DNA from: Dehalococcoidia bacterium
GTDB taxonomy: Bacteria; Chloroflexota; Dehalococcoidia; Bin125
Reading direction: 5' to 3'
DNA length: 64,000 nucleotides
Assembly: GCA_022826965.1 (NCBI GenBank)
Contig: JAJDTU010000002.1
Coordinates: 124,001 to 188,000, forward strand
Shown here: piece after piece, positions 10,839 through 29,065 of the stretch
Position numbering within the stretch: position 1 is the first letter of the stretch
Layout of the letters: every line of letters begins with the position of its first letter
Notes under the pieces: generated by a model
Told to the model about the DNA's origin: nothing
Seen by the model: only the letters and a program-made list of their open reading frames with translations
The model's database searches: none
Translations under genes and position numbers: made by a program

Positions 10839-11489
10839 CTAGAGGCCAGGTACCGCCAGAGCGACGGCGGCCTGGATCTCGTCGAGCGTGCGGTTGACGC
10901 TCATGCCAATCAGGTCCATTCTGGCCAACTGCTCAATTCGCGCCTCCACACGGTCGAGGTACTCGCGCGGCAGCAGCAACTCGAGCAGTCGGCTCGCCCG
11001 TGCGAGGCCGATCAGGGCGACCGTTTCCGGGTCGGGGATCTCATCAGAGAGCAGCGTGTCAATCAGCTTGCGCTGCACGTCCCGGACGACCTGGGGATCG
11101 GTCGGTGGGAACTTCTCCGACTTGAGCACGATCAGGCGTCGCCCGGCCTCGCGCTGGATAATCCGGCGGTCCGTCAGGTCTTCGATGATCTGCTGACGCA
11201 GGACCAGCGCGTAACGTGCGATCTCCGAGATCCAGTACGAGATCGGTTGGTTTGGCGGGCCGGAATTGATCTGATGCAGCACGCTGTCAAGTAGCGGGTT
11301 GCCGGTCCCGTCGGCCGAGATGATGAACAGGCGATTGGGGTCGGTGTCGATCCGATTCAGGAATGACAGGTCGAGCAACGAAGCACCGGCGATCGCGTAG
11401 TCCAGGCGGCCATCGTAGGGTCGGTCAAGCACGCCGTCCTCGCCCAGTCCCAACAAGACGATCTGGTCGCTGATCGATAGTTCTGCCAT
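10839..11489 (-). CDS. GPP34/GOLPH3-family phosphoprotein
   Basis: The 216-residue product begins AELSISDQIVLLGLGEDG and continues with a DYAIAGASLLDLSFLNRI helix, the hallmark of the GPP34 (GOLPH3-like) family. Eukaryotic GOLPH3 binds phosphatidylinositol-4-phosphate; the bacterial members, common in Actinobacteria and Chloroflexota, are uncharacterised. ATG 11489 is preferred over an adjacent GTG (11492) because GGGG lies 6 bp upstream. It precedes the acyl-CoA dehydrogenase by 43 bp. A membrane-associated or lipid-related role is plausible but not shown. Confidence 0.82.
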   Translation of the reverse strand: MAELSISDQIVLLGLGEDGVLDRPYDGRLDYAIAGASLLDLSFLNRIDTDPNRLFIISADGTGNPLLDSVLHQINSGPPNQPISYWISEIARYALVLRQQIIEDLTDRRIIQREAGRRLIVLKSEKFPPTDPQVVRDVQRKLIDTLLSDEIPDPETVALIGLARASRLLELLLPREYLDRVEARIEQLARMDLIGMSVNRTLDEIQAAVALAVPGL

Positions 11490-11626
11490 CACTGTCCCCT
11501 TTGTCTCTGGAGCCGACTAGGCAACGCATCGGTGTGAGCCGGCATTGCTCATAGGGCAATCCTAACGGACACCCTGCGACGGCTATGTCGCGCGTTGACC
11601 AGTCGGAGCTTTAGACCCGGTCTCGA

Positions 11627-11663: not shown

Positions 11664-12896
11664 CTAGCGGCTGCCCCGCAATCGCGGGTCGAGCACGTCG
11701 CGTAGGGCGTCGCCCAGCACGTTGAAGCCGAACACGAGCGATGTCAATGCCAAGCCGGCCCAGAGCGACGTCCAGGGCGAGTAGACGATGAACTGGCGGC
11801 CGTCGGCGATCATCTTGCCCCAGGAGACGTCGAGCGTGCCCAGGCCGAGGAAGCTGAGCGCCGCTTCAGCCAGAATGAACGCGCCAATGGTGATCGAGAA
11901 AATCACGATCAGCGGCGCGAAGAGGTTGGGCAGAATGTGAAAGATCATGATCCGAATCGATGATGCACCGATCGTTCGAGCAGCTTCCACATACGGCATC
12001 TCGCGAATCTGAATGACGCTCCCGCGCACAATGCGGTTCGTAGGCGCGATGCCGAGCACCGACAGCGCGAGCGTCACCCACAGTGCGGACGGATCAGTCA
12101 GTGATGCGATCAGCAGCAGGAACACGATCGGCGGATACGACTGAATCGCGTCCATGATTCGGTTCACCGTCAGATCGACGGTCCCGCCCAGGGAACCAGC
12201 CACGAGTCCGATGATCGTGCCGACGCCGACGCCGATCAATGTCGCGAAGAAACCGATGTATAGAGAGAGCCTCGCCCCCTCGGTTACGCGGGAGAAGAGA
12301 TCGTGACCAGCTCGATCAGTGCCAAGCCAATGCTTGCTCGATGGTCCCTGCAGTGAGGCTGCGGTCAGCGGGTTGTCGGTGCCGGTGGCGAGCAACGCAT
12401 CGATGTCGTGAATTGTGCCGCCACGAATCTCAATCTGTTCCTCGTCGATCAATCTCTCGAGCAGGGTGCCGGCCTCGATGTGCTGGAGCGCGTAACCGAC
12501 CATCTCATGTGCGACGCCCTGATCGATGGCCGCCGATCCGTAAATCTCGGGGTCGGAGACAAGCTCGCGTAGCTCTCCATCCGAAACGTCCTCGGCCAGA
12601 CCGTCCAACGCATTGGCGAGCTTGTCATCCGCATAGGTCACGGAAGCGATCTCGAATACGTCTCGCGAGTCGTAGCGGCCGATCCCCATCCAGCCGCCTC
12701 CATCGCCAACGGTGCCGACCGCGATGACGCTCCAGAGGAACACCAGCAACACGCCGGCCGCGCCGAGCCGCTTTTGACTCATGAAGTCGGCGAACCAGCG
12801 GAGACTGCCACGGAGTCCACCGGACTCGTCAACCCGTAGACCCTGCGTCGCCGCGAACTCCTCAATGGTTCCGGCGTCGGCCGATGGCTCGCTCAT
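11664..12896 (-). CDS. DppC-like ABC permease with extended outer loop (unit 1)
   Basis: This 410-residue permease belongs to the dipeptide/nickel BPD family. TM1 is at about 46-64, and the canonical DppC entry SLQGPSSKHWLGTDRAGHD comes only at about 181-199, so an insertion of roughly 115 mainly helical residues (66-180) separates them. Ordinary DppC proteins are near 290-300 residues. The EAA loop (EMPYVEAARTIGAS, followed by ILPN) that contacts the ATPase is intact. It follows the DppB-like gene by 18 bp. The paralogue at 16695 has the same enlarged architecture. By topology of the family the insertion faces the outside, near the binding protein. Confidence 0.9.
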   Translation of the reverse strand: MSEPSADAGTIEEFAATQGLRVDESGGLRGSLRWFADFMSQKRLGAAGVLLVFLWSVIAVGTVGDGGGWMGIGRYDSRDVFEIASVTYADDKLANALDGLAEDVSDGELRELVSDPEIYGSAAIDQGVAHEMVGYALQHIEAGTLLERLIDEEQIEIRGGTIHDIDALLATGTDNPLTAASLQGPSSKHWLGTDRAGHDLFSRVTEGARLSLYIGFFATLIGVGVGTIIGLVAGSLGGTVDLTVNRIMDAIQSYPPIVFLLLIASLTDPSALWVTLALSVLGIAPTNRIVRGSVIQIREMPYVEAARTIGASSIRIMIFHILPNLFAPLIVIFSITIGAFILAEAALSFLGLGTLDVSWGKMIADGRQFIVYSPWTSLWAGLALTSLVFGFNVLGDALRDVLDPRLRGSR

Positions 12897-12914: not shown

Positions 12915-14396
12915 CTATGCATAGCGGATGCGCGGATCAATGAGCGCATAACTGATGTCGATGATGATGTTGACGACGATCACGAACAGGGCGAGGAAGA
13001 AGACCATCGTCGCAATCACCGGCGTATCGGCCTGGTAGATGCGCTGCAGCAGGGCCAGGCCAACACCGGGAATGTTGAACAGGACCTCGAGGATGATGTT
13101 GCCGCCAACCAGGGCAGCAACCTGCAGTCCGAAGACACTGAGCACCGGCACCAGGGCATTGCGGAAGGCGTGTCGCCGAATGACCTGGCGTTCGCGAAGC
13201 CCTTTCGACCACGCGGTGCGCACGTAGTCCTGGCGCAACACCTCAAGCAGTTCAGAGCGGGTGATGCGCATGAGTCCGGCTCCGGCGGCGATGCCGCCGG
13301 CCACCGCAGGAATGGTGTACAGGGCGAAGAATCCCGGCACCGAGGTAAAGATGCTCCGGGCCTCCTCCTCAGCCAGAGGAATCGACCATAGGCCGCCTTC
13401 GAAGAGAGAGCCCGGCGAGACGACGAAGATCAGCATGGTTGCGACCCAGAACGAGGGCGCCGCGAGAGCGAAGATGGCAAAGCCCCGCAGCAGGTAGTCG
13501 GGCAGTCGGTCCTGGCGCATGGCCGAGAACACGCCAACCGGCAGCGCCACCACAATGGCCACGATCAGGGCATACACATTGAGGTGGAGCGTGCGCGGGA
13601 GCGTGCGCAGGAAGATATCCATCGATGGTTCGTTCGTCTGGAAGGACGGCCGGAACTTGAGCCGAATCGTGTCCCAGATGAACTCCACGTACTGGATCCC
13701 GAGCGCCTTGTCGAGCCCGAGTCGATGCTTGACCGACGACTCAGTGATTTCCCGCGTGGGCGCGATGATCGTCGATCCCGGCAGCAACGGCGTGTCTGCG
13801 GTCAGTTCGCCGTCCGGGTTCGACGGCGTGCCGACCAGGTTGACATTGAGATAGTCCTCAGGGCTCACCCGGTTGACGTGAGCGAGCTCGGTGATTGTCG
13901 TACTGTCTCGCAGTTTCAGGTTGCTTCCGGCGGGAGCGAACGGCTGCCCGGCGAAGGTGGGGAAGTCGACCGCTGGGTTGCGCTCCATCAGCAAGGCGAT
14001 GCCCTGATCGACATCCTCGGGACGCGCCAGTCGCTCCTGTCTGGCGATCACGGACAACAACTGGCCGTCGATGACGATGATGCTGGAGCCGGGAATTAGC
14101 TCACTGTCGCGCGTTATCCGTGGATTCAGAGCGAGAATCTCATCCGGGCCCACGCCGTAAAAGAGCGCCAGGGAGTCGACACTGTCACCAGCCACCACGC
14201 GATGAAGCGTTCGCTCAATCTCGATCTCGCCGATGATGTCTGCGGGTTGCGTCGTCGCTCCCGAGGCTTCGAGATTGGAGAGTTTGATGGTGACGTAGTC
14301 ACCGGGCAGTAGGTTCACTCCCAGGAAGAGCAGCGAGATGACCAACCACAGGGTCGGTATCACCAGCAAGAGGCGACGAATCAGATACTTCTGCAT
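12915..14396 (-). CDS. DppB-like ABC permease with inserted LysM domain (unit 1)
   Basis: The protein has 493 residues; ATG 14396 has GGAG 6 bp upstream. TM1 (about 9-29) and PGDYVTIKLS start like DppB, but the normal loop text LGLDKALGIQYVEFIWDT only appears at about 227. Between them lies an inserted region of about 180 residues with a LysM-like repeat (64-109: HRVVAGDSVDSLALFYGV, then ILALNPRI and PGSSIIVI) and a weaker second one (157-212). Typical DppB has 305-340 residues. The EAA loop (RQDYVRTAWSKGLRER) is normal. LysM domains bind GlcNAc-containing glycans such as peptidoglycan; here they would sit on the outer face. It is preceded by a strong hairpin and the binding-protein gene at 14511. 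Confidence 0.9.
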   Translation of the reverse strand: MQKYLIRRLLLVIPTLWLVISLLFLGVNLLPGDYVTIKLSNLEASGATTQPADIIGEIEIERTLHRVVAGDSVDSLALFYGVGPDEILALNPRITRDSELIPGSSIIVIDGQLLSVIARQERLARPEDVDQGIALLMERNPAVDFPTFAGQPFAPAGSNLKLRDSTTITELAHVNRVSPEDYLNVNLVGTPSNPDGELTADTPLLPGSTIIAPTREITESSVKHRLGLDKALGIQYVEFIWDTIRLKFRPSFQTNEPSMDIFLRTLPRTLHLNVYALIVAIVVALPVGVFSAMRQDRLPDYLLRGFAIFALAAPSFWVATMLIFVVSPGSLFEGGLWSIPLAEEEARSIFTSVPGFFALYTIPAVAGGIAAGAGLMRITRSELLEVLRQDYVRTAWSKGLRERQVIRRHAFRNALVPVLSVFGLQVAALVGGNIILEVLFNIPGVGLALLQRIYQADTPVIATMVFFLALFVIVVNIIIDISYALIDPRIRYA

Positions 14397-14448
14397 CTTG
14401 CGCTCCGGACGCAACAGGCGGCGGGGGCGGCAGTGCCCTGCAGCGAAC

Positions 14449-14483
14449 GCGGGGTTCCGCTCTCAGGTTGAGCGAAACCCCGC
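14449..14483 (-). promoter_or_regulatory. Strong intercistronic stem-loop between binding protein and permease genes
   Basis: On the minus strand GCGGGGTTTCGCTC pairs with GAGCGGAACCCCGC (14 bp with one G-T pair, 7-nt loop). It lies in the 114-bp gap after the 14511 lipoprotein gene and before the permease start. There is no T run, so it looks more like an mRNA-stabilising or partial-termination element (compare malE-malF) than a full terminator. Confidence 0.65.
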
Positions 14484-14510
14484 GGCCGTGTTGCCTCGAG
14501 CCCCGGCAGC

Positions 14511-16553
14511 CTATGCCTGGAACTGCGGGTGTGTCGTGTCGAGCCAGGTCTCGTCGTGGTTGTGCGAGTCGTGCGCGAACTGCCAGGTGTCCTCATCGCG
14601 GTTGACGTAGGGCCACCAGATGGTCGGCACAACACCGTTCATCACGCCGAACCAGCTGAAGATGCCGTCCAGACCGTGATCGCTGTTCGGGTAGCCGCCG
14701 CCTTCGTCCACGCCGAGTCCGATCCGCTGCACGTTGCGCGCCATGTCGCGACGCTTCTCCGTGTCGAGCGTGACTGTCATCTCGTCGATGATGTCTTCGA
14801 CCGGCTGGTAGTTGTACTGCGTCACGTTGGAGGCGCCGCCACGCTTGAGCGCGAGACCGAACTGCGCCGTCGGGTCGAGGTCGGCCGGCGGGTTGGTCCA
14901 GGTCGGCGCGCGGCCGGGGAACGTCTTGTTGTCGAAGCGGTCCTGCATCACCGTGTAGGGCTGCAGGTCTAGTTCGACGTTGAATCCCACCGCTTCGCGG
15001 TACATGTTGCGCGTGGTCTCGGAGATGCCGGGGTAGGTCGTCTCCCAGATGTCCGGAATGTAGATCGTCACCGAGCGGCTGGTGTCGAAGCCGGAAGCGT
15101 CGATCAGCTCTCGGCAGAGTTGGATGTCGGCTTCGCGGTCGATCCGGTAGCCGGGGAAGCTGCGCAGCTCGTCTGCCGGGATTGTCCAGTAGGTCGAGAA
15201 CCAGGGGCAGTAATGAGTGCCGGACGGCTTCGCGGCGCCGAGATAGACGGCGTCGATCAACAGGTCACGGTCTACCGCGACATGCATCGCGTAGGCGAAG
15301 CGACGATCGAGATACGGGTTGCCCTGTCCATCGGAACCTTCCCAACCCGGTTCGTAGGTTCCGGTGACCGTGACGATCGTGTATCCAAATGCGCCTTCGG
15401 CAACCGGATGCTCGGGGAAGTCGGCGGTCAGCTCCTCAACCTGCACTGACGACAGCGGAAAACCGCCGATATCAATCTGCTGTCCTCGATAGGCGGCGTC
15501 AACAGCGGTCGGGTCGGTCAGGTTGACGAAATCGACAGCGTCCGGATACGGCAACTGCTGCCCGTCGGCGCCGTTCTTCCAATAGTTCGGGTTGCGCTCG
15601 AGGTAGATGCCAATGTCGGGGTCATAGCTGATCGGGAAGAACGGACCCGAGCCGGATGAGAGCTCGACGTTGGCTGTTTCATCACGCCAGCGGCTGCCGA
15701 ACTCCTGTATGCCTTCGGGCGAGGTAATCCAGGAGAACGGCCGGAGGATCGTGCCACCCAGATAGGTGGAGTCGGGACCGTCCGTCTTAGCGATGAAGGT
15801 CTGCTCGTCCGGTGATTCCTTCGACACGGTCTTGCGGAAGGCGTCCTGACCGCGGAAACGGGCGTCCGGATTGCCGTCGGCATCGAGCGCGGCGATCTGA
15901 CGATCGAAGTTGATGTCGATGTCCTGCGCGGTGACCATTCGGCCGCCCTCGGTCGGGTACCGATCCCACCAACTCGCACCTCTGTCGATGTTGAAGATGT
16001 ACGTCTCTCCGTCGGGCTGCTCCGGTAGGGAGGAGATATCCGACTCCATGATCCCCTTCTCTTTGTTCGCCCAGCGGATGAGGTAGTTCATGTAGAACCC
16101 CATCCAGTAGGTGGTGGGACCAAAGACGCCACGATGCGGGTCGAAGAAATCGTGGGTCGCGGCCGGGGTGGAAAACTTCAGGGTGCCGCCGTACGTACGT
16201 AGCGGAGCCGCCTCCTCCTGCTGCTGTTGTTGCTGTGCCTGCGCGACAGCCTGCTGTTCCTGCTGCTCGGCCTGCTGAGCGGCCTGGTCGGCCTGTTGGG
16301 GCTGCTGCTCCTGCTGCATGGCCTGCTGCTGTTGCTGCTGCATGGCCTGCTGCTGTTGCTGCATCGCCTGCTGTTGCTGTTGCTGCTGCTGCCGGGTCTG
16401 AGCGACGGCCTGTCCGTCGTCATCGTCATCGTCACCGCAGCCGACCAGTGCTAGACCAGCCGCGCCAACGCCAGCTCGGCCTGATGCTCGCAAGAGGGCA
16501 CGCCGACTCATACGATTGCGCTTCATGCGCTGCCAGTAGTTGCGATCGCTCAT
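14511..16553 (-). CDS. Family 5 extracellular solute-binding protein, Gln-rich Tat lipoprotein (SBP a)
   Basis: This 680-residue binding protein starts at ATG 16553 (AAAGGAG upstream). The N terminus has a twin-arginine motif SRRALLRAS (16-24), a short hydrophobic stretch and a lipobox ending LVGC39, so it is likely exported folded and lipid-anchored. Six Asp follow (41-46), then an extraordinary Gln-rich segment (52-112, with AMQQQQ repeats), then the SBP_bac_5 fold from about 121 (FSTPAATHDFFDPH). It probably captures peptides or similar oligomers for the permeases at 12915-14396 and 11664-12896. It carries its own -10-like box. The ligand is unknown. Confidence 0.92.
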   Translation of the reverse strand: MSDRNYWQRMKRNRMSRRALLRASGRAGVGAAGLALVGCGDDDDDDGQAVAQTRQQQQQQQQAMQQQQQAMQQQQQQAMQQEQQPQQADQAAQQAEQQEQQAVAQAQQQQQQEEAAPLRTYGGTLKFSTPAATHDFFDPHRGVFGPTTYWMGFYMNYLIRWANKEKGIMESDISSLPEQPDGETYIFNIDRGASWWDRYPTEGGRMVTAQDIDINFDRQIAALDADGNPDARFRGQDAFRKTVSKESPDEQTFIAKTDGPDSTYLGGTILRPFSWITSPEGIQEFGSRWRDETANVELSSGSGPFFPISYDPDIGIYLERNPNYWKNGADGQQLPYPDAVDFVNLTDPTAVDAAYRGQQIDIGGFPLSSVQVEELTADFPEHPVAEGAFGYTIVTVTGTYEPGWEGSDGQGNPYLDRRFAYAMHVAVDRDLLIDAVYLGAAKPSGTHYCPWFSTYWTIPADELRSFPGYRIDREADIQLCRELIDASGFDTSRSVTIYIPDIWETTYPGISETTRNMYREAVGFNVELDLQPYTVMQDRFDNKTFPGRAPTWTNPPADLDPTAQFGLALKRGGASNVTQYNYQPVEDIIDEMTVTLDTEKRRDMARNVQRIGLGVDEGGGYPNSDHGLDGIFSWFGVMNGVVPTIWWPYVNRDEDTWQFAHDSHNHDETWLDTTHPQFQA

Positions 16554-16602
16554 CGGTCTCACTCCTTTTCAGCGCTTCTGGAGATGCGCCGATAGTTGGG
16601 CA

Positions 16603-16608
16603 ATTCTA
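16603..16608 (-). promoter_or_regulatory. Putative -10 box for SBP a
   Basis: TAGAAT on the minus strand, 49 bp before the start at 16553; the -35 (GGAACG at 17 bp) is poor. It suggests that this binding-protein/permease unit is transcribed separately from the upstream permease pair. Confidence 0.35.
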
Positions 16609-16694
16609 GCCGAACCGCTGTGTATCGTTCCATTCCCGCACCCTTGTCAGGCCGAGCGACCAGATAACACCGCCGTCATCACTCGAGAGTCGGC

Positions 16695-17939
16695 CTAGCG
16701 GGTTCCCCGGAGGCGTGGATCAAACACGTCTCGCAGGGCGTCTCCCAAGACATTGAAGCCGAAGACCAGGCTGGTCAGCGCAAGGCCGGCGAAGAGCGAT
16801 GTCCATGGCGACTGGACGATGAACTGGCGTCCGTCGGCGATCATCTTGCCCCAGGAGACATCCAGCGTGCCCAGACCGAGGAAGCTGAGCGCCGCTTCGG
16901 CGAGGATGAACGCGCCGATCGTGATCGAGAAGATCACGATCAATGGGGCGACGATGTTGGGCAGGATGTGCAGCATCATGATGCGCGCGTTGGTTGCGCC
17001 GAGCGTGCGGGCCGCCTCGACGAACGGCATTTCGCGGAGTGCGATTACCGCGCCGCGCACAATTCGCTGCACCGGCGCGATCGCCAGTACGGAGAGCGCG
17101 AGCGTCACCCAGATTGCCGACGGCTCGGTGACTGAGCGAAGGAGCAGCAGCAGCACGATCGGCGGGAACGACAGCAGCGCATCTACCAGGCGGCTGATCG
17201 CCAGGTCGATGTTGCCGCCCAGGCCACCAGCGATCAGACCCAACGCCGTACCAGCAACCACGCCAATCAGCGTGGCGAAGAACCCGATGTAGAGCGATAG
17301 CCGCGCGCCTTCGGTGACCCTCGAGAAGAGGTCGTGTCCGGCCCGGTCGGTGCCGAACCAGTGCTTGGCGGACGGCCCCTGAAGCGAGGCGGTCGTCAAC
17401 GGCGTGTTGGTCCCGGTCGCGAGTAGATCGTCGACATCCGTGATCGTGCCGTTGGCGATCTCAATCTGGGCCGGATCGATGTCTTCCGACAGGTGGGTCA
17501 ACACCGTGCCGGTTTCAATCAGTCCCTCAACGTACGCGAGCATGTCGTCCAGCACGCCGGACTCCTGGGCGAGTTCTCCGTAGACCTCGGGGGCAAGCAA
17601 CAGCTCTCGCAGCCGGGCGTCGGAGATGTCGGCCGGCTCACCGTCCAAAGCGTTGGCCATCTTGTCGTCGGCGAAGCTGGAGTTGGCGACCTTGAAGACG
17701 TCTTGGGAGTCGTAGCGCCCGATTCCGAGCCAACCACCGCCTGAACCGACCGTGCCGACGGCGACGATCGACCAGACAACGACGAGCACGAGGCCAGCCG
17801 CGCCCAATGGTTTGGTCCTGAAGAAGGAAATCAGCGCGCTGGTGACCAGCTGGAGCGTGGTGCGTTGTTCGACGCGCAGACCTTGTGCCTGCGCGAACTC
17901 TTCGAGTTCTCTGGCGGTCGTTTGACGTTCGTCGCTCAT
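16695..17939 (-). CDS. DppC-like ABC permease with extended outer loop (unit 2)
   Basis: This 414-residue paralogue of the 11664 permease has the same plan: N-terminal EEFAQAQGLRVEQ, TM1, GSGGGWLGIGRYDSQDVF, then about 110 mostly helical residues before SLQGPSAKHWFGTDRAGHD, where normal DppC sequence resumes. The EAA loop (EMPFVEAARTLGATNARI) is intact. ATG 17939 has GGGAG about 8 bp upstream and lies 23 bp after the partner DppB-like gene. The transmembrane and EAA regions are nearly identical to unit 1, while the outer insertion has diverged. Confidence 0.9.
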   Translation of the reverse strand: MSDERQTTARELEEFAQAQGLRVEQRTTLQLVTSALISFFRTKPLGAAGLVLVVVWSIVAVGTVGSGGGWLGIGRYDSQDVFKVANSSFADDKMANALDGEPADISDARLRELLLAPEVYGELAQESGVLDDMLAYVEGLIETGTVLTHLSEDIDPAQIEIANGTITDVDDLLATGTNTPLTTASLQGPSAKHWFGTDRAGHDLFSRVTEGARLSLYIGFFATLIGVVAGTALGLIAGGLGGNIDLAISRLVDALLSFPPIVLLLLLRSVTEPSAIWVTLALSVLAIAPVQRIVRGAVIALREMPFVEAARTLGATNARIMMLHILPNIVAPLIVIFSITIGAFILAEAALSFLGLGTLDVSWGKMIADGRQFIVQSPWTSLFAGLALTSLVFGFNVLGDALRDVFDPRLRGTR

Positions 17940-17962
17940 GATGCGTCTCCCGCTCGACCCGA

Positions 17963-19588
17963 TTAGGTGTATCGAATACGCGGATCGATCACCGCGTAGG
18001 AGATGTCGATGATGATGTTGGTGATGATGATGAAGAGCGCGAAGAAGAACACCATCGTTTGGACGACCGGCAGGTCGGCCTGGTTGATTCGCTGAATCAG
18101 CAGCAGGCCGATACCCGGGATGTTGAAGAGCAGCTCAAGAATGATGTTGCCGCCGACGAGCGCAGCGATCTGCAGACCGAGCACGCTCATCACATTGACC
18201 AGCGCGTTGCGCATGGCGTGTCGACGTATCACGGTGCGCTCGCGCAGACCCTTGGACCACGCGGTCCGCACGTAGTCCTGGCGCAGGACCTCGAGCAACT
18301 CAGACCTCGTGATCCGCATCAGGCCGGCCCCCGCTGCAATCCCGCCGGCGACGGCCGGAATCGAGTAGAGCGCCAGCGCGCCGGTGAACGAGCTAAAGAC
18401 CGAACGCGCCTCCTCCGATGTCAGGGGAATCGACCAGATGCCGCTCTCGGAGATGCCGCCCGGCGTCACGACGAAGATCAGCATCGTCGCAATCCAGAAC
18501 GAGGGCGCGGCCAGTGCCAGGATGGCGAAGCCGCGCAGCGCGTAGTCGAGCGGACGGTCCTGGCGCATCGCTGAGAGAATCCCGACGGGCAGCGCGATAA
18601 CCAGGGCCACGATCAAGGAATACACGTTGAGATGCAACGTGCGAGGCAGCGCGCGCAGGAAGATGTCGAGCGAACCTTCCTGGGTCTGGAATGACGGACG
18701 GAACTTGAGCCGAACCGTCTCCCAGAGGAAATCGATGTACTGCGTGCCCAGCGGCTTGTCGATCCCAAGCCGATGGCGGATATTGGCCTCCGTGATCTTG
18801 GTCGTCGGCGTGACGATCTTGTCCGACGGGATCAGGACTTCCGCGCCCGCCTCGAGTGGTTCGGAGGCATCGACTCCGCGGTTCGCGTCGGTCATGTCAT
18901 CGATGTTGCGCCCGAAGGCAGCCGCAATCGCTTCGAGCGTGTCGCCCTCCTCGGCGATCACCAGCGCGGTGGGCACCAACTGGGTATCGGCGGTCAAGTT
19001 ACCGTCGGGGTTGCTCGCGCTTCCGGTCGGATTGACGGCGAGGATGTCGCCGGCCTCAATCCGGTTGACGTGCGCCAACTCTTCCAGCGTGAGGCTCGTG
19101 CGGATCGTCAGAAACGTTCCGGCCTCCGCGTACGGTTTGCCCTGATACAACGGAAAGTCGACATCGGGATTGCGATCAATCAGCAGTTGAACGCCCTCCT
19201 GGGCTTCTTCAGGCAGAGACACTTTCTCCGCGACCGCAATCGTCTCCAGTAACTGACCGGGGATCACCGCCACTCTGGTACCAGGCCGCAACTCGCCTCC
19301 GGTGTCGAGGTCGGGATTCGTCGCGAGGATTTCCGAAACCGTGGTGTTGTTCTCCGCGGCAATCGACTCCAGCGTGTCGCCGGAGATCACGCGATGCAAC
19401 GTCTCTTCGACCGCGATGTAGCCAGTGATTTCCGATTCACGCTGCTCGGCGCCCTGGTTCTCGAGATTCGAGAGCTTGCGCGTGACGAAGTCGCCCGGCA
19501 GGGCGCGAAGCGCCAGGAAGAGCAACGAGACAACCAACCACAGCGTCGGGATCACCAGAAGTATGCGCTGGAGGAGGTATCGCTGCAT
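17963..19588 (-). CDS. DppB-like ABC permease with two or three LysM-like repeats (unit 2)
   Basis: The protein has 541 residues, about 200 more than usual DppB. TM1 (9-29) is followed by an inserted outer region from about 40 to 270. LysM-like repeats are at 64-109 (HRVISGDTLESIAAENNT, ILATNPDL, PGTRVAVI) and 210-254 (VIAEEGDTLEAIAAAFGR, then LEAGAEVLIPS), with a degenerate one at 158-209 (LTLEELAHVNRIEAGDIL). The normal loop resumes at RHRLGIDKPLGTQYIDFLW. The EAA loop is intact. ATG 19588 follows GGGAG by 6 bp. It forms a unit with the binding protein at 19645 and the permease at 16695. The LysM part probably faces outward and may bind cell-wall or substrate glycans. Confidence 0.92.
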   Translation of the reverse strand: MQRYLLQRILLVIPTLWLVVSLLFLALRALPGDFVTRKLSNLENQGAEQRESEITGYIAVEETLHRVISGDTLESIAAENNTTVSEILATNPDLDTGGELRPGTRVAVIPGQLLETIAVAEKVSLPEEAQEGVQLLIDRNPDVDFPLYQGKPYAEAGTFLTIRTSLTLEELAHVNRIEAGDILAVNPTGSASNPDGNLTADTQLVPTALVIAEEGDTLEAIAAAFGRNIDDMTDANRGVDASEPLEAGAEVLIPSDKIVTPTTKITEANIRHRLGIDKPLGTQYIDFLWETVRLKFRPSFQTQEGSLDIFLRALPRTLHLNVYSLIVALVIALPVGILSAMRQDRPLDYALRGFAILALAAPSFWIATMLIFVVTPGGISESGIWSIPLTSEEARSVFSSFTGALALYSIPAVAGGIAAGAGLMRITRSELLEVLRQDYVRTAWSKGLRERTVIRRHAMRNALVNVMSVLGLQIAALVGGNIILELLFNIPGIGLLLIQRINQADLPVVQTMVFFFALFIIITNIIIDISYAVIDPRIRYT

Positions 19589-19644
19589 CGCTGCTCCCGA
19601 TCAGTTGACTACAAGCGCCACTGAGGTCCGTGCGAAGGTGCACA

Positions 19645-21660
19645 CTAGGCGGGGTAATCCGGGTGGTTCACGTCGAGCCATGCGTCGTCGTACCGATGTG
19701 AGGCGTGGGCGAACTGCAACGTGTCATCGGGGCGCTGGACGTACGGCCACCAGAGTGCAGGCGAGATGCCGTTCATCACCGCCGGAGCGAAACCAAGACC
19801 CTCGACGCCGTGATCCGGGTGCGTGCCCAGCAAGATGCGCTGCGCCTCGAAGGCCATGTCACGCCGCTCCTCGCTGTCCAGGGTGACGCGCATGGTGTTG
19901 GCGATGTCGGTCATCGGCTGGAAGTCGTAGGACAGGTTGTTGGTCGCTCCGCCGGGCGTCAGGTTCTGCAGGTACGACGTCGTCGGGTCGAGGTCGTCCG
20001 GTGGGTTCGTCCACTGCGGTCCGCCGCCCGGGTAGGTCTTCGATACCCAGCGCTGCAACAGCACGGTGTAGGGCTGGATGTTGAATTCGATCTCAATCCC
20101 CAGCGCCTCCTCGTACATGTTCTTCTCGGTCTCGAGGATGCCCTGGTACGTCTGCTCCCAGATGTCGGGCGCATAGAGGATCATCTTGCGATCCTTGTCG
20201 TAGCCCGACGCATCGAGAGCCGCGCGGGCATCGGCGATGTCGGCATCGCGGTCGGGCCGATAGCCCGGTGTTGAGAGCAGTTCCTCTTCAGGAATCGCCC
20301 AGTACTTGTTGAACCAGGGCGTGTGCTCTTGACCGCTCGGCTTGCCCGAACCGAGGTAGACAGCGTCGATCATCAGGTACCGGTCGACGGCCAGATGGAG
20401 CGCGTAGCAGAACCGCCGGTCGAGGTAGGGATTGCCCAGCCCGTCTTCGCCCGGCCAATCCGGGTTGTAGTTGAAGATGCCGGTGATGATCGTGAAGCCG
20501 AACGCGATCTGACCCTGGGGATGATCGGGGAAGTCGGCGCCGATCGATTCGGCCTGCAGGCTCGAAAGCGGGAAGCCGCCCACGTCGATCTCGCCGTTGC
20601 GGTAGGCCGTTTCGACCACCGTTGGATCGTCCATGCTTGCGATGCCGATGCCGTCCATGTAGGGCAGCGGTTGGCCATCGGCGCCCATCTTCCAGTAGTC
20701 GTCGTTGCGGACCATGTCCACGCCGATGTCGGGGTCATAGAAGGTTGGAATGTACGGCCCGGTTCCGGAGGACAGCTCAACGTTGGTTGCCTCGTCGCGC
20801 CAGCGATCGCCGAACTCACTGATGGCCTCCGGCGACGTGATCCACGAGAAGGGCCGAAGAACGGGGCTGCCCAGATACGTGGCGTCGATTCCGTCCGTCT
20901 TGGCGATGAACGTCACGTCGTCCGGCGTTTCCATGAACGCCGTCTTGCGGAATGCCGACGCTCCCAGGTACGTGCCATCCTCGGAGCCGCTGGCGTCGAC
21001 CGCATCGATCTGACGCTGGAAGTTGGCCTCGATGTCCTGCGCAGTGACTAGACGTCCGCCCTCGGTCGGGTACTGATCCCAGTACCGTGCGCCACGGTCA
21101 ATCGAGAAGATGTAGGTCTCCTCGTCGGGCGTCTCGGGAAGTGACGCTACATCGGCCTCGAGGATTCCCTGTTCCTTGTTGCGCCAGCGGATGAGGTAGT
21201 TCATGTAGAACCCCATCCAGAACTGGGTAGGTCCGAACACGGCTCGATGCGGATCGAAGTAGTCGTGGGTCCGCGCAGGACTGGAGAAGCGCAACGTGCC
21301 GCCGCGGGTGATGTCGGACACCGCTGCCTGTTGCTGTTGATCGACCTCGTCGGCCGTCTGTTCCTGCTGGTCCGCCTGCTGCGCCTGTTGGGTCGCGGCC
21401 GCATCCTGTTGGGCCTGCTGGCCTTGTTGCGCCGACTGCTGCTGCATGGCCTGCTGTTGCTGTTGCTGCGCGGCCTGCTGCTGCATCGCCTGCTGTTGTT
21501 GCTGCGTGGTTCGCGCGACGCTGTCCTCGTCGTCGTCGCCTCCGCAGCCAACCAACGCCATACCGGCGGCGCCCACCCCCGCCCGACCCGACGCTCGCAG
21601 GAGCGCACGCCGGCTCATCCGATTCCGCCTTATGCGTTGCCAGTAGTTGCGTTCAGTCAT
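19645..21660 (-). CDS. Family 5 solute-binding protein, Gln-rich Tat lipoprotein (SBP b)
   Basis: This 671-residue product is read from ATG 21660 (GGAG 6 bp upstream). It has the same N terminus as SBP a: SRRALLRAS, then lipobox LVGC39, an Asp/Glu cluster and a Gln-rich segment (about 53-115). The SBP_bac_5 domain starts near RGGTLRFSSP. Its gene is 56 bp upstream of the LysM permease gene of unit 2, so it is the likely dedicated receptor of that unit. Membrane-anchored on the outer side of the cytoplasmic membrane; ligand unknown. Confidence 0.92.
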   Translation of the reverse strand: MTERNYWQRIRRNRMSRRALLRASGRAGVGAAGMALVGCGGDDDEDSVARTTQQQQQAMQQQAAQQQQQQAMQQQSAQQGQQAQQDAAATQQAQQADQQEQTADEVDQQQQAAVSDITRGGTLRFSSPARTHDYFDPHRAVFGPTQFWMGFYMNYLIRWRNKEQGILEADVASLPETPDEETYIFSIDRGARYWDQYPTEGGRLVTAQDIEANFQRQIDAVDASGSEDGTYLGASAFRKTAFMETPDDVTFIAKTDGIDATYLGSPVLRPFSWITSPEAISEFGDRWRDEATNVELSSGTGPYIPTFYDPDIGVDMVRNDDYWKMGADGQPLPYMDGIGIASMDDPTVVETAYRNGEIDVGGFPLSSLQAESIGADFPDHPQGQIAFGFTIITGIFNYNPDWPGEDGLGNPYLDRRFCYALHLAVDRYLMIDAVYLGSGKPSGQEHTPWFNKYWAIPEEELLSTPGYRPDRDADIADARAALDASGYDKDRKMILYAPDIWEQTYQGILETEKNMYEEALGIEIEFNIQPYTVLLQRWVSKTYPGGGPQWTNPPDDLDPTTSYLQNLTPGGATNNLSYDFQPMTDIANTMRVTLDSEERRDMAFEAQRILLGTHPDHGVEGLGFAPAVMNGISPALWWPYVQRPDDTLQFAHASHRYDDAWLDVNHPDYPA

Positions 21661-21711
21661 TCCAGGCTCCATCAAGTCAGCGACACGTCGCACTCGATTG
21701 CGACTTGGCAG

Positions 21712-21742
21712 AGTGTAAGCGAATTGACATTGCGGGTGTCGA
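21712..21742 (-). promoter_or_regulatory. Putative promoter of SBP b
   Basis: On the minus strand TCGACA (-35, 21742-21737), a 19-bp spacer and TACACT (-10, 21717-21712) precede the start at 21660. The -35 lies inside the loop of the hairpin at 21730-21750. A similar GCTTACACT word precedes SBP c. Confidence 0.4.
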
Positions 21743-21750
21743 GCCCGCAA
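21730..21750. terminator. Hairpin TTGCGGG / CCCGCAA
   Basis: Perfect 7-bp arms with a 7-nt loop in the gap between the SBP c and SBP b genes, just beyond the larger hairpin at 21767-21805. It could assist termination of SBP c or act in the SBP b promoter region. Confidence 0.4.
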
Positions 21751-21766
21751 TAGACGAGAGGCGTAC

Positions 21767-21805
21767 TGCCCAGCGCCGAGCGAACGTTCGGGTCGGCGCC
21801 GGGCA
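21767..21805 (-). terminator. Terminator-like hairpin after SBP c
   Basis: Downstream of the SBP c stop, TGCCCGGCGCCGA and CGGCGCTGGGCA form a long GC-rich stem (one G-T pair). No T run follows, which is common in GC-rich genomes. Confidence 0.5.
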
Positions 21806-21814
21806 ATCTCGCGC

Positions 21815-23842
21815 TTATGCCGGGTAGTCCTCGTGGGCCGTGTCGAGCCACATGTCCTCGACGATCTTGTGGCCCTGGTGCGCAAACTGGTAGCCGTCGG
21901 GCTGGACGTGGTAGTACGGCCAGGCCGCCTCGTTCGAGACCGGGTTCATCACGCCGAGGCCTGGCGAGAGCGATTCCCAACCCCAATCGGGGTGGATGCC
22001 GAGTTGGAGCTGAACCATCTCCTCGGCCAGCACGCCCTTGGCCTCAAGGTCGAGCGTGATCTTCATCTCCTCGGCGATTTCGGTCACGCGCGGGTTCTCG
22101 TAGCTGTAGAAGTTGGCCGACGCTCCCGGGATCCGGCCATTGAGCCAGTAGCTGGTCGGGTCGAGGTCGGACGGCGGGTTCGTCCAGCAGGGGACCTGAC
22201 CCTGGAATGTGCCATCGACCAACCGCTGCAGAAGCACCGTGTACGGGTCGATGCCGATCTCGACCGAGATCCCCATCGCCGACTCGTACATGTTCTTCTG
22301 CGTCTCCACAATGCCGGGGTAACGCTGCTCCCAGACATCCGGCGCGAAGAGCCCAATGGTGCGTCCTTCATCGCGGAAGCCGCTGGCGTCCATCAACTCG
22401 TTGACGAGCTGAAGATCGGCGTCGCGATCCGGACGGAAGCCGGGGATCGCGGCCATCTCTTCCTGGCTGGGCGACCAGAAGGTCGAGAACCAGGGAATCT
22501 CCTCGAGGGCCGACGGCTTGGCCGAGCCGAGGTAAACCGTGTCGATCATCAGGTATCGGTCGGTGGCCACGTGGAACGCGGCCGCCACTCGCCGATCGAG
22601 CCAGGGGTTTCCGAGTCCGTCCTCGCCGGGCCAGTCCGGGTTGTAGTTGGTGCGGATCATGATGGTGAATCCGCCGCCGACCGTATTGCGCTGCATCTGA
22701 GGGAAGTCATTGAGCAGTGACTCGACGCGGCTGATGTTCAGCCAGGCGCCGTCCAGCTCTTTCGAACGGACCGCGGTCTCAATCGCCGTTTCGTCGAACA
22801 GGTTGTAGTACTCAAAGCGGTCGACGTATGGCAGCTGACCGCCCCACTGGTCGTCCTTCCAATAGTTCGGATTGCGATTGGCGATGAACACCTCGGTCGG
22901 CTCAAAGCTCTCGGCAATGAAGGGACCGGACCCGGCCACGCGCAGGGTGGTCGGGTCGTCGCGCCAGACATCCGAGTCGGTGCCCCACTCGCGGATGCCT
23001 TCGGGCGAGGCCATCCAACCGAATGGGCGCAGGAAGGTCGCGGACAGATAGGTCGAGTCGATGCCTTCCGACGTGGTCCGCAGGGTGTGATCGTCAACCG
23101 CTTCCGCCGTCGCGATCTTGCGCCAACTCGACAGCCCCAGGAATGTGCCATCCTCGGCGCCGGTCGAATCGACCCCGGCCGTGTTGCGCTCGACATTGAC
23201 GGCGATGTCCTCGGCCGTGATGTTGCGTCCGCCCTCGGTCGGATAGGCGTCGTGCCACGCCGCGCGCGGGTTGATGTTGAAGACGTAGGTCGTCGGGTCG
23301 GGGATTTCGGGCAGGGACGCGATGTCCGCCTCCATCTCCGCCTTTTCCTTGTTCTTCCAGCGGATCAGATTGTTGTAGAGCAGGGAGTGCATGAACTGGG
23401 TGGGGCCGAAGACGCCGCGGTGCGGGTCCCAGTAGTCGTGCGTCTCGATCGTGGAGGCGCGGCGCACGGTGCCGCCGTACTGCGGCTGGTTTTCCGGGCT
23501 GACCTGCGCGGCCGCCTGCTGTTGTTGCTGCTGCTCGGCGTCGGCGACCGCCTGTTGCTCCTGCTGGTCAGCCTGTTGCGCGGCCTGATCCGCAGCCTGC
23601 TGCTGCTCTTGCTGCTGCATGGCCTGCTGCTGTTGTTGCTGCTGGCCCTGCTGCTCCATCGCCTGTTGTTGTTGCTGCTGTTGCTGCCGAACCTGGGCGA
23701 CGCTGTCGTCATCGTCATCGTCGCCGCAACCGACCAGCGCGAGGCCTGCAGCCCCTACGCCGGCCCGCCCGGAAGCGCGCAAGAGGGCACGCCGGCTCAT
23801 CCGATTGCGCCGCATGCGTTGCCAGTAGTTTCGCTCGCTCAT
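21815..23842 (-). CDS. Family 5 solute-binding protein, Gln-rich Tat lipoprotein (SBP c)
   Basis: The 675-residue protein starts at ATG 23842 with AAAGGAG 7 bp upstream. SRRALLRAS, LVGC39, six Asp and a Gln-rich tract (about 52-112) are as in SBP a, followed by QPQYGGTVRRAST and the SBP_bac_5 domain. In the ligand domain it is the most distinct of the set (for example WGTDSDVWRDDPTT and a VFIANRNPNYW loop), so it probably binds a different ligand. No permease gene follows it directly; it may share the two permease pairs downstream. Confidence 0.92.
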   Translation of the reverse strand: MSERNYWQRMRRNRMSRRALLRASGRAGVGAAGLALVGCGDDDDDDSVAQVRQQQQQQQQAMEQQGQQQQQQQAMQQQEQQQAADQAAQQADQQEQQAVADAEQQQQQQAAAQVSPENQPQYGGTVRRASTIETHDYWDPHRGVFGPTQFMHSLLYNNLIRWKNKEKAEMEADIASLPEIPDPTTYVFNINPRAAWHDAYPTEGGRNITAEDIAVNVERNTAGVDSTGAEDGTFLGLSSWRKIATAEAVDDHTLRTTSEGIDSTYLSATFLRPFGWMASPEGIREWGTDSDVWRDDPTTLRVAGSGPFIAESFEPTEVFIANRNPNYWKDDQWGGQLPYVDRFEYYNLFDETAIETAVRSKELDGAWLNISRVESLLNDFPQMQRNTVGGGFTIMIRTNYNPDWPGEDGLGNPWLDRRVAAAFHVATDRYLMIDTVYLGSAKPSALEEIPWFSTFWSPSQEEMAAIPGFRPDRDADLQLVNELMDASGFRDEGRTIGLFAPDVWEQRYPGIVETQKNMYESAMGISVEIGIDPYTVLLQRLVDGTFQGQVPCWTNPPSDLDPTSYWLNGRIPGASANFYSYENPRVTEIAEEMKITLDLEAKGVLAEEMVQLQLGIHPDWGWESLSPGLGVMNPVSNEAAWPYYHVQPDGYQFAHQGHKIVEDMWLDTAHEDYPA

Positions 23843-23884
23843 CTGCCCGCTCCTTTGCTCATGGTGTCGGCAGGAGATTCGCGA

Positions 23885-23890
23885 AGTGTA
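23885..23890 (-). promoter_or_regulatory. Putative -10 box for SBP c
   Basis: TACACT within GCGCTTACACTT on the minus strand, 42 bp before the start at 23842, resembling the box before SBP b. No good -35 is visible. Confidence 0.33.
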
Positions 23891-23958
23891 AGCGCGATTA
23901 CACCCTAGGTACCAGCGATACAACGGAATGTCGAAACATCTGTGGCGCGGAACGAGCG

Positions 23959-23992
23959 GGCGGCCCGCGATGGGAATCCATCGCGGGCCGCC
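23959..23992 (-). terminator. 15-bp perfect hairpin after SBP d
   Basis: GGCGGCCCGCGATGG and CCATCGCGGGCCGCC are perfect inverted repeats around a 4-nt loop, 21 bp after the SBP d stop. This is the strongest hairpin in the window and probably ends or protects the SBP d transcript; it lacks a T tract. Confidence 0.7.
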
Positions 23993-24013
23993 TATGGCTG
24001 CGCCAGTGCGGGA

Positions 24014-26026
24014 CTAGGCCGGGTAGTCGGGGTGGTTGACGTCGATCCAGGTCTCGTCGTAGCGGTGGCTGGCGTGAGCGAACTGCAGCGTGTCCTCGCT
24101 GTGGTGCACGAACGGCCACCAGAGCACCGGCGAGATGCCATTCATCACACCGGGGATCGTGGTGATTCCGTCCAGACCGTGATCGGGGTGGGTACCAAGC
24201 AGCAGGCGCTGGGCATCTTGCGCCATCGCCCAACGCTCTTCGCGGTCGAGGGTGACGCGCATCTTGTACGCGATCTCGGCCATCGGCGGGTAGTCGTAAG
24301 ACAGTGTGTTCACCGACCCTTCCGGGGTGAAGAAGTCGTTGTAGGGCGCGGTCGGGTCGAGTTCGGCGGGCGGGTTGCCCCACTGCGGGCCGCTGCCTGG
24401 GTAGGTGCCGTCGACGAAGCGCTGCAGGATGACGGTGTAGGGCTGCACGTCGAATTCGACATCGAGGTCGAGCGCGTTCTTGTACATGCCGACTTCGGTT
24501 TCGAGTACGCCGGGATAGGACGCTTCCCAAAGGTCGGGCGCGATCATGCGCAGGCCGCGGCTCTTGTCGTAGCCGGAGGCCTCGAGCAGGGCCCGCGCTT
24601 CGGCGACGTCGGTGTCGCGGTCGGGGCGGAAGCCGGGCGTTTGCAACAGTTCTTCCTCAGGGAGCGCCCAGTACGAGCTGTACCACGGGGTGTCGTGCAG
24701 ACCGGTCGGCTTGCCTGAACCGAGGTAGACCGTGTCGATCATCAGGTACGGGTCAACGGCCATGCCGAGCGCCTTGGCGAAGCGCCGGTCGACCCAGGGG
24801 TTGCCCAGGCCGTCCTCACCGGGCCAGTCGGGGTTGTAGTTGACCAGCGTGATGATCGTGAAGCCGAAGGCGATTTGTCCGTAGTTGTGGTCGGGGAAGT
24901 CCTCAGCGATGCCCTCGGCTTGCAGGGTGGTCAGCGGGAAGCGCCCGTTGAGGATTTCTTTGCTGCGGTAGGCGGCGTCAACTGTGGTCGGGTCCTCCAT
25001 GTTGGCCAGCGTGACCTCGTCGTAGTAGGGCAGCGGCTGGCCGTCAACGCCCATTTTCCAGTAGTTGGGGTTGCGCGACATGCCGATCCCGATGTCGGGG
25101 TCATAGCTGTGGGGGATGAAGGGGCCGGTGCCGCTGGACAGTTCAAGGTTGCCGGCTTCGTCGCGCCAGCGGTCGCCGAATTCCGAGATCGCTTCGGGCG
25201 AGGTGATCCAACTGAAGGGGCGCAGCGGGACACCGAGCCAAGTGGCGTCGGGGCCGTCGGTCTTGGCGATCCAGGTCTCGTCGTCAGGCACGTCCATCGA
25301 GGCGGTGCGGCGGAACGCGCCGGCGGAGAGGTAGGTGCCGTCGTCGGCGCCACTGGCGTCCTTGGCCTCGATCTGGCGCTCGTAGTTGACGCGGATATCT
25401 TCGGAGGTCACCAACCGACCGCCTTCGGTCGGATACTGGTCCCAGAAGCGCGCACCCTGATCGATCTTGAAGATGTAGGTCTCGTCGTCGGGGATTTCGG
25501 GCAGCGAGGCGATGTCGGGCTCGGCGATGTCCTGTTCCTTGTTGCGGTAGCGGATGAGGTAGTTCATGTAGAACCCCATCCAGAACTGCGTAGGACCGAA
25601 CACCCCGCGGCCGGGATCGAAATAGTCGTGCGTTGCGGCCGGGGTCGAGAAGGTCAGGTTGCCGCCGCGCACGATCTCCGCGACTGCGGCTTGCTGTTGC
25701 TCCTCGGCATCGGCAGCGGACTGCTCCTGTTGCTCGGCCTGCCCGGCCTGCGAGTCGGCCGCTGCTTCCTGCTGGCCTTGCTGGCCCTGCTGTTGCATGG
25801 CCTGCTGTTGTTGCTGCTGCTGCCCCTGTTGCTGCATCGCCTGCTGTTGCTGCTGCCGCTGGGCCGCGGCCTGGGCGGCCGACTGCTGGCCGTCGTCGTC
25901 ATCATCGCCGCAGCCGACCAGCGCCAGTCCCGCCGCGCCGACACCGGCGCGACCGGAGGCGCGCAACAGCGCGCGCCGACTCATCTGCTTGCGTCGCATG
26001 CGCTGCCAGTAGTTTCGCTCAGCCAT
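24014..26026 (-). CDS. Family 5 solute-binding protein, Gln-rich Tat lipoprotein (SBP d)
   Basis: This 670-residue protein is read from ATG 26026 (GGAGAGG upstream). It has SRRALLRAS, lipobox LVGC39, five Asp and a Gln/Ala-rich tract (about 47-115). The SBP_bac_5 domain begins at RGGNLTFSTPAATHDYFDPG. It is close to SBP b in the ligand domain. It is flanked by its own -10-like words (26071-26085) and a strong 3' hairpin, so it appears to be a single-gene unit. Its permease partner is inferred to be one of the downstream pairs. Confidence 0.92.
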   Translation of the reverse strand: MAERNYWQRMRRKQMSRRALLRASGRAGVGAAGLALVGCGDDDDDGQQSAAQAAAQRQQQQQAMQQQGQQQQQQQAMQQQGQQGQQEAAADSQAGQAEQQEQSAADAEEQQQAAVAEIVRGGNLTFSTPAATHDYFDPGRGVFGPTQFWMGFYMNYLIRYRNKEQDIAEPDIASLPEIPDDETYIFKIDQGARFWDQYPTEGGRLVTSEDIRVNYERQIEAKDASGADDGTYLSAGAFRRTASMDVPDDETWIAKTDGPDATWLGVPLRPFSWITSPEAISEFGDRWRDEAGNLELSSGTGPFIPHSYDPDIGIGMSRNPNYWKMGVDGQPLPYYDEVTLANMEDPTTVDAAYRSKEILNGRFPLTTLQAEGIAEDFPDHNYGQIAFGFTIITLVNYNPDWPGEDGLGNPWVDRRFAKALGMAVDPYLMIDTVYLGSGKPTGLHDTPWYSSYWALPEEELLQTPGFRPDRDTDVAEARALLEASGYDKSRGLRMIAPDLWEASYPGVLETEVGMYKNALDLDVEFDVQPYTVILQRFVDGTYPGSGPQWGNPPAELDPTAPYNDFFTPEGSVNTLSYDYPPMAEIAYKMRVTLDREERWAMAQDAQRLLLGTHPDHGLDGITTIPGVMNGISPVLWWPFVHHSEDTLQFAHASHRYDETWIDVNHPDYPA

Positions 26027-26070
26027 GGAACCTCTCCTCGAAATCGAATCAACCAACTCTCGGTCGCAGA

Positions 26071-26085
26071 ATGCTAGAGAGTCTA
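26071..26085 (-). promoter_or_regulatory. Putative -10 words for SBP d
   Basis: Two candidate -10 boxes, TAGACT (26085-26080) and TAGCAT (26076-26071), lie 45-59 bp before the start at 26026. Neither has a clear -35, so this is a weak call. Confidence 0.25.
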
Positions 26086-26114
26086 GAGCAACACCGTCGC
26101 CGGGCCCCGGGCAC

Positions 26115-28139: not shown

Positions 28140-28165
28140 CGCCGGCTCCGGTAGGAAGTTGCGCG

Positions 28166-28171
28166 AGTATA
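28166..28171 (-). promoter_or_regulatory. Putative -10 box for SBP e
   Basis: TATACT on the minus strand, 26 bp before the start at 28139, in the 98-bp divergent gap shared with the methyltransferase gene. The -35 region is weak. Confidence 0.4.
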
Positions 28172-28237
28172 CGAACTTCGCCGGACGTCTCCTGTTCGCT
28201 CGGATACCACGACCGGCGAGCGGACTACCCTGCGCGC

Positions 28238-29065
28238 ATGAGTCAGCAACGCCCGCAGCCACCGCCCGATCCGGACGCGATGATCGCGCAGTTGCGCCAG
28301 CAGGTGCTGGACGGCTGGGAGCAGGGCGCTGATTTCTTCGACCAGCGCTGGGGCGATCAGGGCGATGAGTTCCACCACGATGTCTTCGCGCCGGCCGCTG
28401 AGCGGATGCTCGGTCTCGAGCGCGGAGCCAAGGTGATCGAGTTCGCTTGCGGCAACGGCGCGTTCGCCCGGCGGCTTGGACGCGCCGGAATGACCGTGCT
28501 GGCTACCGATCTCTCACCCGCCCTGATCGCCCACGCCGAACGGCGCACCGAGACAATCTCCGACCAGGCGGTTGACGTCACGTACCAGACGGTCGATGCG
28601 ACTGACGAGCGCGCCATCATCAACTGCGGCGGGCCGTTCGATGCGGCCGTCTGCATCATGGGCGTGATGTCGATGCCGCTGCTCCGCCCGATGTTCGGCG
28701 GGGCCTGGCGCGTACTCCGGCCGCGCGGCGCCTTCGTCGTGGTCACCCTGCATCCCGGCTACGCCACCGCCGGCTACAAGCTGGCCAAGTCGGAGGAGGA
28801 CGGCGAGCCACACGGTCTGACGATCACCCGCTACCTCTCGCGTTACGTCACGCACGGCGTGACCAATACCGCGCAGAAGCAGCCGCAGATCTACTTCCAC
28901 CGGCCGATGAGCGAACTGCTGGCGGACGCGTTTGCATCCGGACTGGTGCTCGATGGGATGGAGGAGCTGGCCGCCCCGCAGCAGCCGCTCGAGGAGGCCA
29001 AGCTGATGTGGAACTTCCTGCCGGAGATCCCGATGGCGGTCGCGCTGCGGTTCCGCCGCGTCTGA
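28238..29065 (+). CDS. Class I SAM-dependent methyltransferase
   Basis: The 275-residue protein has motif I VIEFACGNGAFARRL (67-81), an acidic end of strand 2 (LATDLS) and FDAAVCIMGVM as motif IV, followed by GGAWRVLRPRGAFVVVTLHPG. This is the small-molecule type methyltransferase (UbiE/SAM-11-like). ATG 28238 begins a typical soluble start; the frame is open further upstream but that part opposes SBP e. It is divergent from SBP e and 13 bp upstream of a small membrane protein gene. The methyl acceptor is unknown. Confidence 0.85.
   Translation: MSQQRPQPPPDPDAMIAQLRQQVLDGWEQGADFFDQRWGDQGDEFHHDVFAPAAERMLGLERGAKVIEFACGNGAFARRLGRAGMTVLATDLSPALIAHAERRTETISDQAVDVTYQTVDATDERAIINCGGPFDAAVCIMGVMSMPLLRPMFGGAWRVLRPRGAFVVVTLHPGYATAGYKLAKSEEDGEPHGLTITRYLSRYVTHGVTNTAQKQPQIYFHRPMSELLADAFASGLVLDGMEELAAPQQPLEEAKLMWNFLPEIPMAVALRFRRV

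Follow-up and report, generated by a model that had tools for sequence, protein, structure and literature searches.

Background

The permeases described here belong to the same family as those of the Escherichia coli Dpp importer (DppBCDF and DppABCDF, PDB 8z1v-8z1z), with which they share the channel domain, an alignable first transmembrane helix (TM1) and an EAA region in both proteins. The scoop of E. coli DppB is a periplasmic region comprising residues 32-62, and two residues of its loop, E41 and R42, extend into the cleft of DppA, the binding protein, and contact it (PMC12136057). The family also comprises the Mycobacterium tuberculosis importers DppABCD and OppABCD (8wd9, 8j5q), in which the binding protein is a membrane-anchored lipoprotein (PMC12136057) and whose permease chains show no LysM insert in sequence alignments.

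Outside this family, two systems offer working precedents for the functions considered below, one for the docking of binding proteins and one for anchoring to the cell wall. The precedent for docking is the P2 loop of MalF, a large extracytoplasmic loop domain in the permease of the maltose ABC importer (MalFGK2) that reportedly contacts the binding protein (Daus 2009 and Grote 2009, listed by title in the references of PMC3328499); it lies between other transmembrane helices, is not a LysM domain and is no relative of the insert analyzed here. The precedent for anchoring is FimV of Pseudomonas aeruginosa, an inner-membrane protein with a periplasmic LysM motif that is tied to peptidoglycan and required for the placement of an envelope machine (PMC5285504), although FimV is not a transporter and has a single motif. 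LysM domains bind GlcNAc-containing polymers, and that of AtlA from Enterococcus faecalis uses an aromatic side chain for stacking on the sugar, with binding mediated mostly by main-chain atoms (PMC4083421). Cell-wall-binding modules have been described in enzymes, in adhesins and in scaffolds of the envelope. In the present permeases they are built into a mobile loop of the importer channel, at a site that normally inserts into the cleft of a binding protein.

Results

Two DppB permeases with LysM modules

The window analyzed is a stretch of 64,000 nucleotides from a Dehalococcoidia bacterium (contig JAJDTU010000002.1), and coordinates refer to it unless a locus is named. Its reverse strand encodes two DppB/OppB-family permeases with a LysM insert: a long form of 541 aa (17963..19588) and a short form of 493 aa (12915..14396). 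The open reading frame of the latter was called at 12915-14414, and its likely start was placed at the ATG at 14396 (MQKYL...) because this agrees with all orthologues in the alignment. Both proteins are clear members of the permease family, with matches to the BPD_transp_1 channel domain (PF00528) of 129 bits for the long form and 132 bits for the short form, against a cut-off of 26.4 bits. The channel domain of the long form (residues 332-539, 17972..18595, reverse strand) has an intact EAA coupling region, and the coupling motif EVLRQDYVRTAWSKGL is present in both permeases. None of the NCBIfam DppB/OppB equivalogs reached its cut-off, the best being Opp2B at 235-237 bits versus 350.

The first-pass annotation had proposed LysM repeats at residues 64-109 of both permeases and 210-254 of the longer one, in addition to degenerate copies, and the profile search it called for bears this out. 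PF01476 matches two stretches of the long form (64.2 bits, E 1e-17) and residues 65-108 of the short form (30.3 bits, E 4e-7; 14073..14204, reverse strand), above the curated gathering cut-off of 20.9 bits. The profile was also matched in all 16 homologues scanned, and the order survey returned a dozen orthologues that match the long form over its full length, with 78-92% identity across the N-terminal 300 aa. A gene-fusion or frameshift artefact is ruled out by the recurrence of the in-frame architecture across many independent MAGs, and the E-values, the conservation and the dN/dS of the insert (~0.12-0.15) exclude chance. Across the whole assembly PF01476 yields 19 matches, three of which fall in the two permeases (31-39 bits, among the weaker of the 19), and the genome holds several other LysM-protein frames. 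The insert is restricted to 2 of the ~23 OppB-like permeases of the genome.

An AlphaFold2 model of residues 1-300 of the long form, built with 24 sequences (mean pLDDT 79.9), resolves the degenerate copies into a tandem array of four beta-alpha-alpha-beta modules with the LysM fold, at about residues 61-110, 111-158, 159-211 and 212-256 (pLDDT mostly 85-95 in 51-260). The top fold matches of the model (Foldseek and VIA-align) are LysM domains, including structural parts of contractile-injection systems and phage baseplates, and their Z-scores of 4-6 are those expected for a domain of ~45 residues. LysM1 (19259..19408, reverse strand, as are all modules) is canonical, with a Pfam match at residues 65-106 and an rmsd of 1.1-1.7 A over 47-50 residues to solved LysM domains. 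It has in common with PF01476 domains such as the AtlA LysM and the LysM pair of Thermus thermophilus NlpC/P60 (4uz2) the fold and the G-D-T and N-P hallmarks, which most copies keep. LysM2 (19115..19258; invariant G132, L136, N140 and P141) is visible only in the model, and LysM3 (18956..19114) holds R176, D181, N186 and N193-x-D195-G196-x-L198 in 24 of 24 sequences; unlike those domains, both have diverged past Pfam detection, and the whole array sits in a permease loop. LysM4 (18821..18955) corresponds to the second Pfam stretch, is also matched in the genome scan and superimposes on the AtlA LysM at 2.5 A. By alignment the short form lacks LysM4 and has degenerate LysM2 and LysM3 at about residues 111-205 (13782..14066). 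LysM1 is devoid of aromatic residues, LysM4 is strongly acidic, and no conserved aromatic sugar platform is retained in the modules.

Insertion within the scoop

The position of the array can be read from the alignment with E. coli DppB (phmmer versus PDB chains, 8z1v_A). Residues 2-35 of the long form align with DppB 2-35 (a weak match of 4.9 bits, in register) and residues 268-540 with DppB 50-337, so that the 14 residues 36-49 of the E. coli protein are replaced by ~232 residues bearing the LysM modules. As anticipated in the first-pass annotation, the insert thus lies between TM1 and the ordinary DppB core, spanning from about residue 36 or 49 to residue 267, just before the 'LG.D' helix. 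Taken together with the extent of the scoop region (32-62), these breakpoints place the LysM block within the scoop, where it separates the two short helices, and the short uninterrupted scoop that marks DppB/OppB permeases between TM1 and the next helix is lacking. Scoop helix 1 (residues 31-48, PGDFVTRKLSNLENQGAE; 19445..19498, reverse strand) aligns with its E. coli counterpart as far as residue 35 and is retained (PGDFVTRKLSNLENQG) as the most conserved extracellular stretch of the protein, with an entropy over 24 sequences of 0.59 versus 1.1-1.4 for LysM1-3. Scoop helix 2, the 'LGIDKPLG' helix (residues 267-296; 18701..18790, reverse strand), is where ordinary DppB homology resumes. That the insert faces the outside of the cell, as had been assumed, follows from the topology of DppB as given by homology to the solved structures (PMC12136057).

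Distribution and selection

A survey of other genomes found the architecture in 16 members of the order out of 20, spread over three of the five genera of a single family. In the 393 genomes sampled from the class and the 400 sampled from the phylum it was not observed elsewhere, the remaining matches being confined to TM1 and adjacent residues or to a single short end. The carriers in a GenBank scan are Chloroflexi/Dehalococcoidia MAGs (e.g. SB0664, RHO1-3, IRC2 and bin125), whose isolate names, in our reading, suggest a largely sponge-derived set. A 511-aa frame in one genome (G664) was discarded as an independent long DppB, since it is an upstream frame extension of an ordinary permease. 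All four members of the order without the architecture have mraY. A recent insert-free ancestor in these four was rejected, as only distant permeases (39-48% identity) were found in them. Our partial coverage of the literature returned no described LysM-permease fusion. Within the genome collections surveyed, the architecture is a genuine domain insertion, specific to one clade, in a transporter of known type.

Median dN/dS values (Nei-Gojobori; rough, since dS is near 1) are 0.12-0.15 for the insert and 0.04-0.06 for the channel, and judged by these ratios the LysM-DppB architecture is under purifying selection. Conservation is uneven along the insert, with the canonical LysM1 being more variable and the strictest constraint falling on scoop helix 1 and the degenerate LysM2 and LysM3, in which E127, G132, N140, P141, R176, D181, N186, N193, D195 and G196 are invariant wherever these modules are present.

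The genetic makeup of the organism is that of a murein producer. It has a dcw operon (ftsZ, ddl, murB, murC, a murG-like gene, ftsW, murD, mraY and murF) and four PBP loci, and mraY occurs in every one of the order's 20 genomes. Sponge SAR202 genomes have been reported to be devoid of peptidoglycan (PMC6306507), a condition that these murein pathway genes reject for the present genome. As read from its genes, the organism makes peptidoglycan, and murein is available to the modules as a ligand.

DppC partners and the surrounding array

Each LysM-DppB is accompanied on the same strand by a long DppC, of 414 aa beside the long form (16695..17939, PF00528) and of 410 aa beside the short form (11664..12896). 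Homology to ordinary DppC starts only at about residue 183-189; the partner of the long form resembles the E. coli and M. tuberculosis proteins from residue 183 on, with the alignment to E. coli DppC beginning at residue 186. The difference is due to an extra insert of ~100 aa in the TM1-TM2 loop (about residues 76-182 of the partner of the long form; 17394..17714), shared by both DppC and modelled as helical with one hairpin (AlphaFold2 pLDDT ~71-88 over residues 91-170, 36-42 from about residue 171). No Pfam or PDB sequence match was obtained for this insert, and the fold search list was occupied by matches to the channel domain. By DppC topology it, too, would face outside. Long DppC occur only next to LysM-DppB (in both pairs of the array versus none of ~20 other permeases of the genome) and adjoin it again in the relatives' loci read, the two pairs being syntenic wherever both could be read.

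The array also encodes five SBP_bac_5 lipoproteins on the reverse strand, one between the two permease pairs (14511..16562; Tat-like RR, LVGC lipobox and Q-rich linker) and four beyond them (19645-21885, 21815-23923, 24014-26200 and 26115-28262, with unrefined ORF starts). In contrast with the E. coli system, this array of several binding proteins comes without adjacent ATPase genes, none being present among the neighbours scanned, and the ATPases are therefore expected from elsewhere in the genome. An OppD/OppF-like pair sits on another contig (C4). Only three oligo_HPY ATPase domains were found in the genome, in this adjacent pair (G000:C4:130374-131859, L145) and at G000:C14:243253-243456, which suggests that ATPases are shared among its ~21 OppB/OppC-type permease pairs.

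A third pair in related genomes

Five relatives (G004, G009, G010, G011 and G015) have a third LysM-type DppB, absent from the window genome. In each of the four loci read, it adjoins a third long DppC, with intact reading frames (L046:5590-8237, L048:3554-6117, L050:3218-5856 and L047:17162-19509). The EAA stretch (EVLRQDYVRTAWSKGLRERTVIRR) is missing from all four third DppB read, as is the corresponding stretch from both third DppC aligned. By Pfam the channel domain of the third DppB appears as two separate pieces, and none is detected in the two third DppC tested. The canonical LysM1 is below Pfam detection in these paralogues and absent from one. The transmembrane helices and the extracellular inserts are nevertheless kept, and across three genomes the third DppB shows a dN/dS of ~0.28. 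Judging from this pair, the extracellular parts would seem able to serve a purpose even when uncoupled from ATP, slow decay being a possible alternative.

Discussion

Our preferred reading, held tentatively, is that the window encodes transport-competent importer pairs of the peptide type whose scoop, on the outside of the cell, has become a platform for docking and anchoring on the wall side. The two scoop helices would form its stalk; the conserved core of LysM2 and LysM3, together with the DppC insert, would widen the surface on which the array's several lipoprotein binding proteins dock; and the canonical LysM1, as well as LysM4 where present, would hold the platform against the glycan strands of peptidoglycan. 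ATPase subunits would be supplied from elsewhere in the genome, and the family of the binding proteins points to oligopeptides or similar solutes, possibly wall-derived peptides, as likely substrates. This reading is supported by the identification of LysM through both Pfam and fold, the insertion in the scoop, the intact channel and EAA region, the co-occurrence with the long DppC, the selection acting on the insert and the murein genes. It is weakened by the rank of the permease modules among the genome's LysM matches, by the lack of an aromatic in LysM1 and the acidity of LysM4, by the fading of LysM1 in the third paralogues and by the four members of the order that hold mraY without the architecture. 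In addition, so large an array at the tip of the scoop could equally hinder the docking of binding proteins.

The interruption of the scoop, the insert of DppC itself and the concentration of invariant residues outside the canonical LysM1 make protein docking a serious competitor of glycan binding. The LysM fold could have become a pure protein-protein scaffold in the manner of MalF P2, docking or capping five binding proteins on two permease pairs, and we consider this nearly as likely as the anchoring platform, the balance between them being close. Its seat in the very motif that contacts the binding protein (PMC12136057), the loss or degeneration of LysM1 in paralogues, the optional nature of LysM4 and the structural use of LysM folds in baseplates all speak for it; on the other hand, a pure scaffold need not preserve the hallmarks that most copies of LysM1 keep, and murein and other LysM proteins are at hand in the same organism. 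With a full murein pathway, wall anchoring or the hand-over of glycans, both raised in the first-pass annotation, are possible in principle. The latter, in which the array catches glycans or muropeptides (from turnover of its own wall, the wall of prey or the chitin of a sponge host) and passes them or their peptides to the channel, is in our judgement quite improbable. Oligopeptide importers of the Dpp/Opp family can take murein peptides, the record names of several relatives hint at sponges, and LysM domains do bind GlcNAc polymers (PMC4083421), but importers of this class receive their substrates through the binding protein rather than the permease, the modules are devoid of a conserved aromatic platform and no glycan hydrolase was seen among the neighbours scanned. 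Less probable still is an apparatus acting chiefly as sensor or receptor, with the permease part as a membrane anchor for which transport is not required. The persistence of the inserts in the third pair under a dN/dS of ~0.28 fits such a role, but the two pairs of the window have an intact EAA region, the third is absent from this genome and none of the array neighbours scanned was identified as a signalling gene.

Returning to the platform, its wider implications depend on the ligand. If wall glycan is bound, the uptake of nutrients would be physically coupled to peptidoglycan, giving a new and testable connection of transport with the wall; if only binding proteins are docked, LysM would have been recruited as an importer interface resembling MalF P2 and evolved independently of it. 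The coupling-dead third pair is a natural experiment on whether the extracellular part functions in the absence of ATP-driven transport. A broader scheme, in which the importer is fixed to the wall or reads it through the LysM modules of its scoop while the coupling-dead paralogue serves as an ATP-independent extracellular receptor or scaffold, seems to us somewhat unlikely.

In most SBP_bac_5 lipoproteins of the genome (window 14511-28262, L168-L197), an LVGC lipobox with an RR motif close by is accompanied by a stretch rich in Q (typically 24-40 per 60 residues), and the Q-rich linkers were for this reason rejected as part of a special LysM system. Another DppC-like permease, of 474 aa (L166:523-1947), has a different large insertion within the channel region. 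Finally, a protein of the Golgi phosphoprotein 3 family (GPP34; window 10839-11492), with an acyl-CoA dehydrogenase beside its gene, adjoins the array and keeps this position in most of the relatives' loci read.
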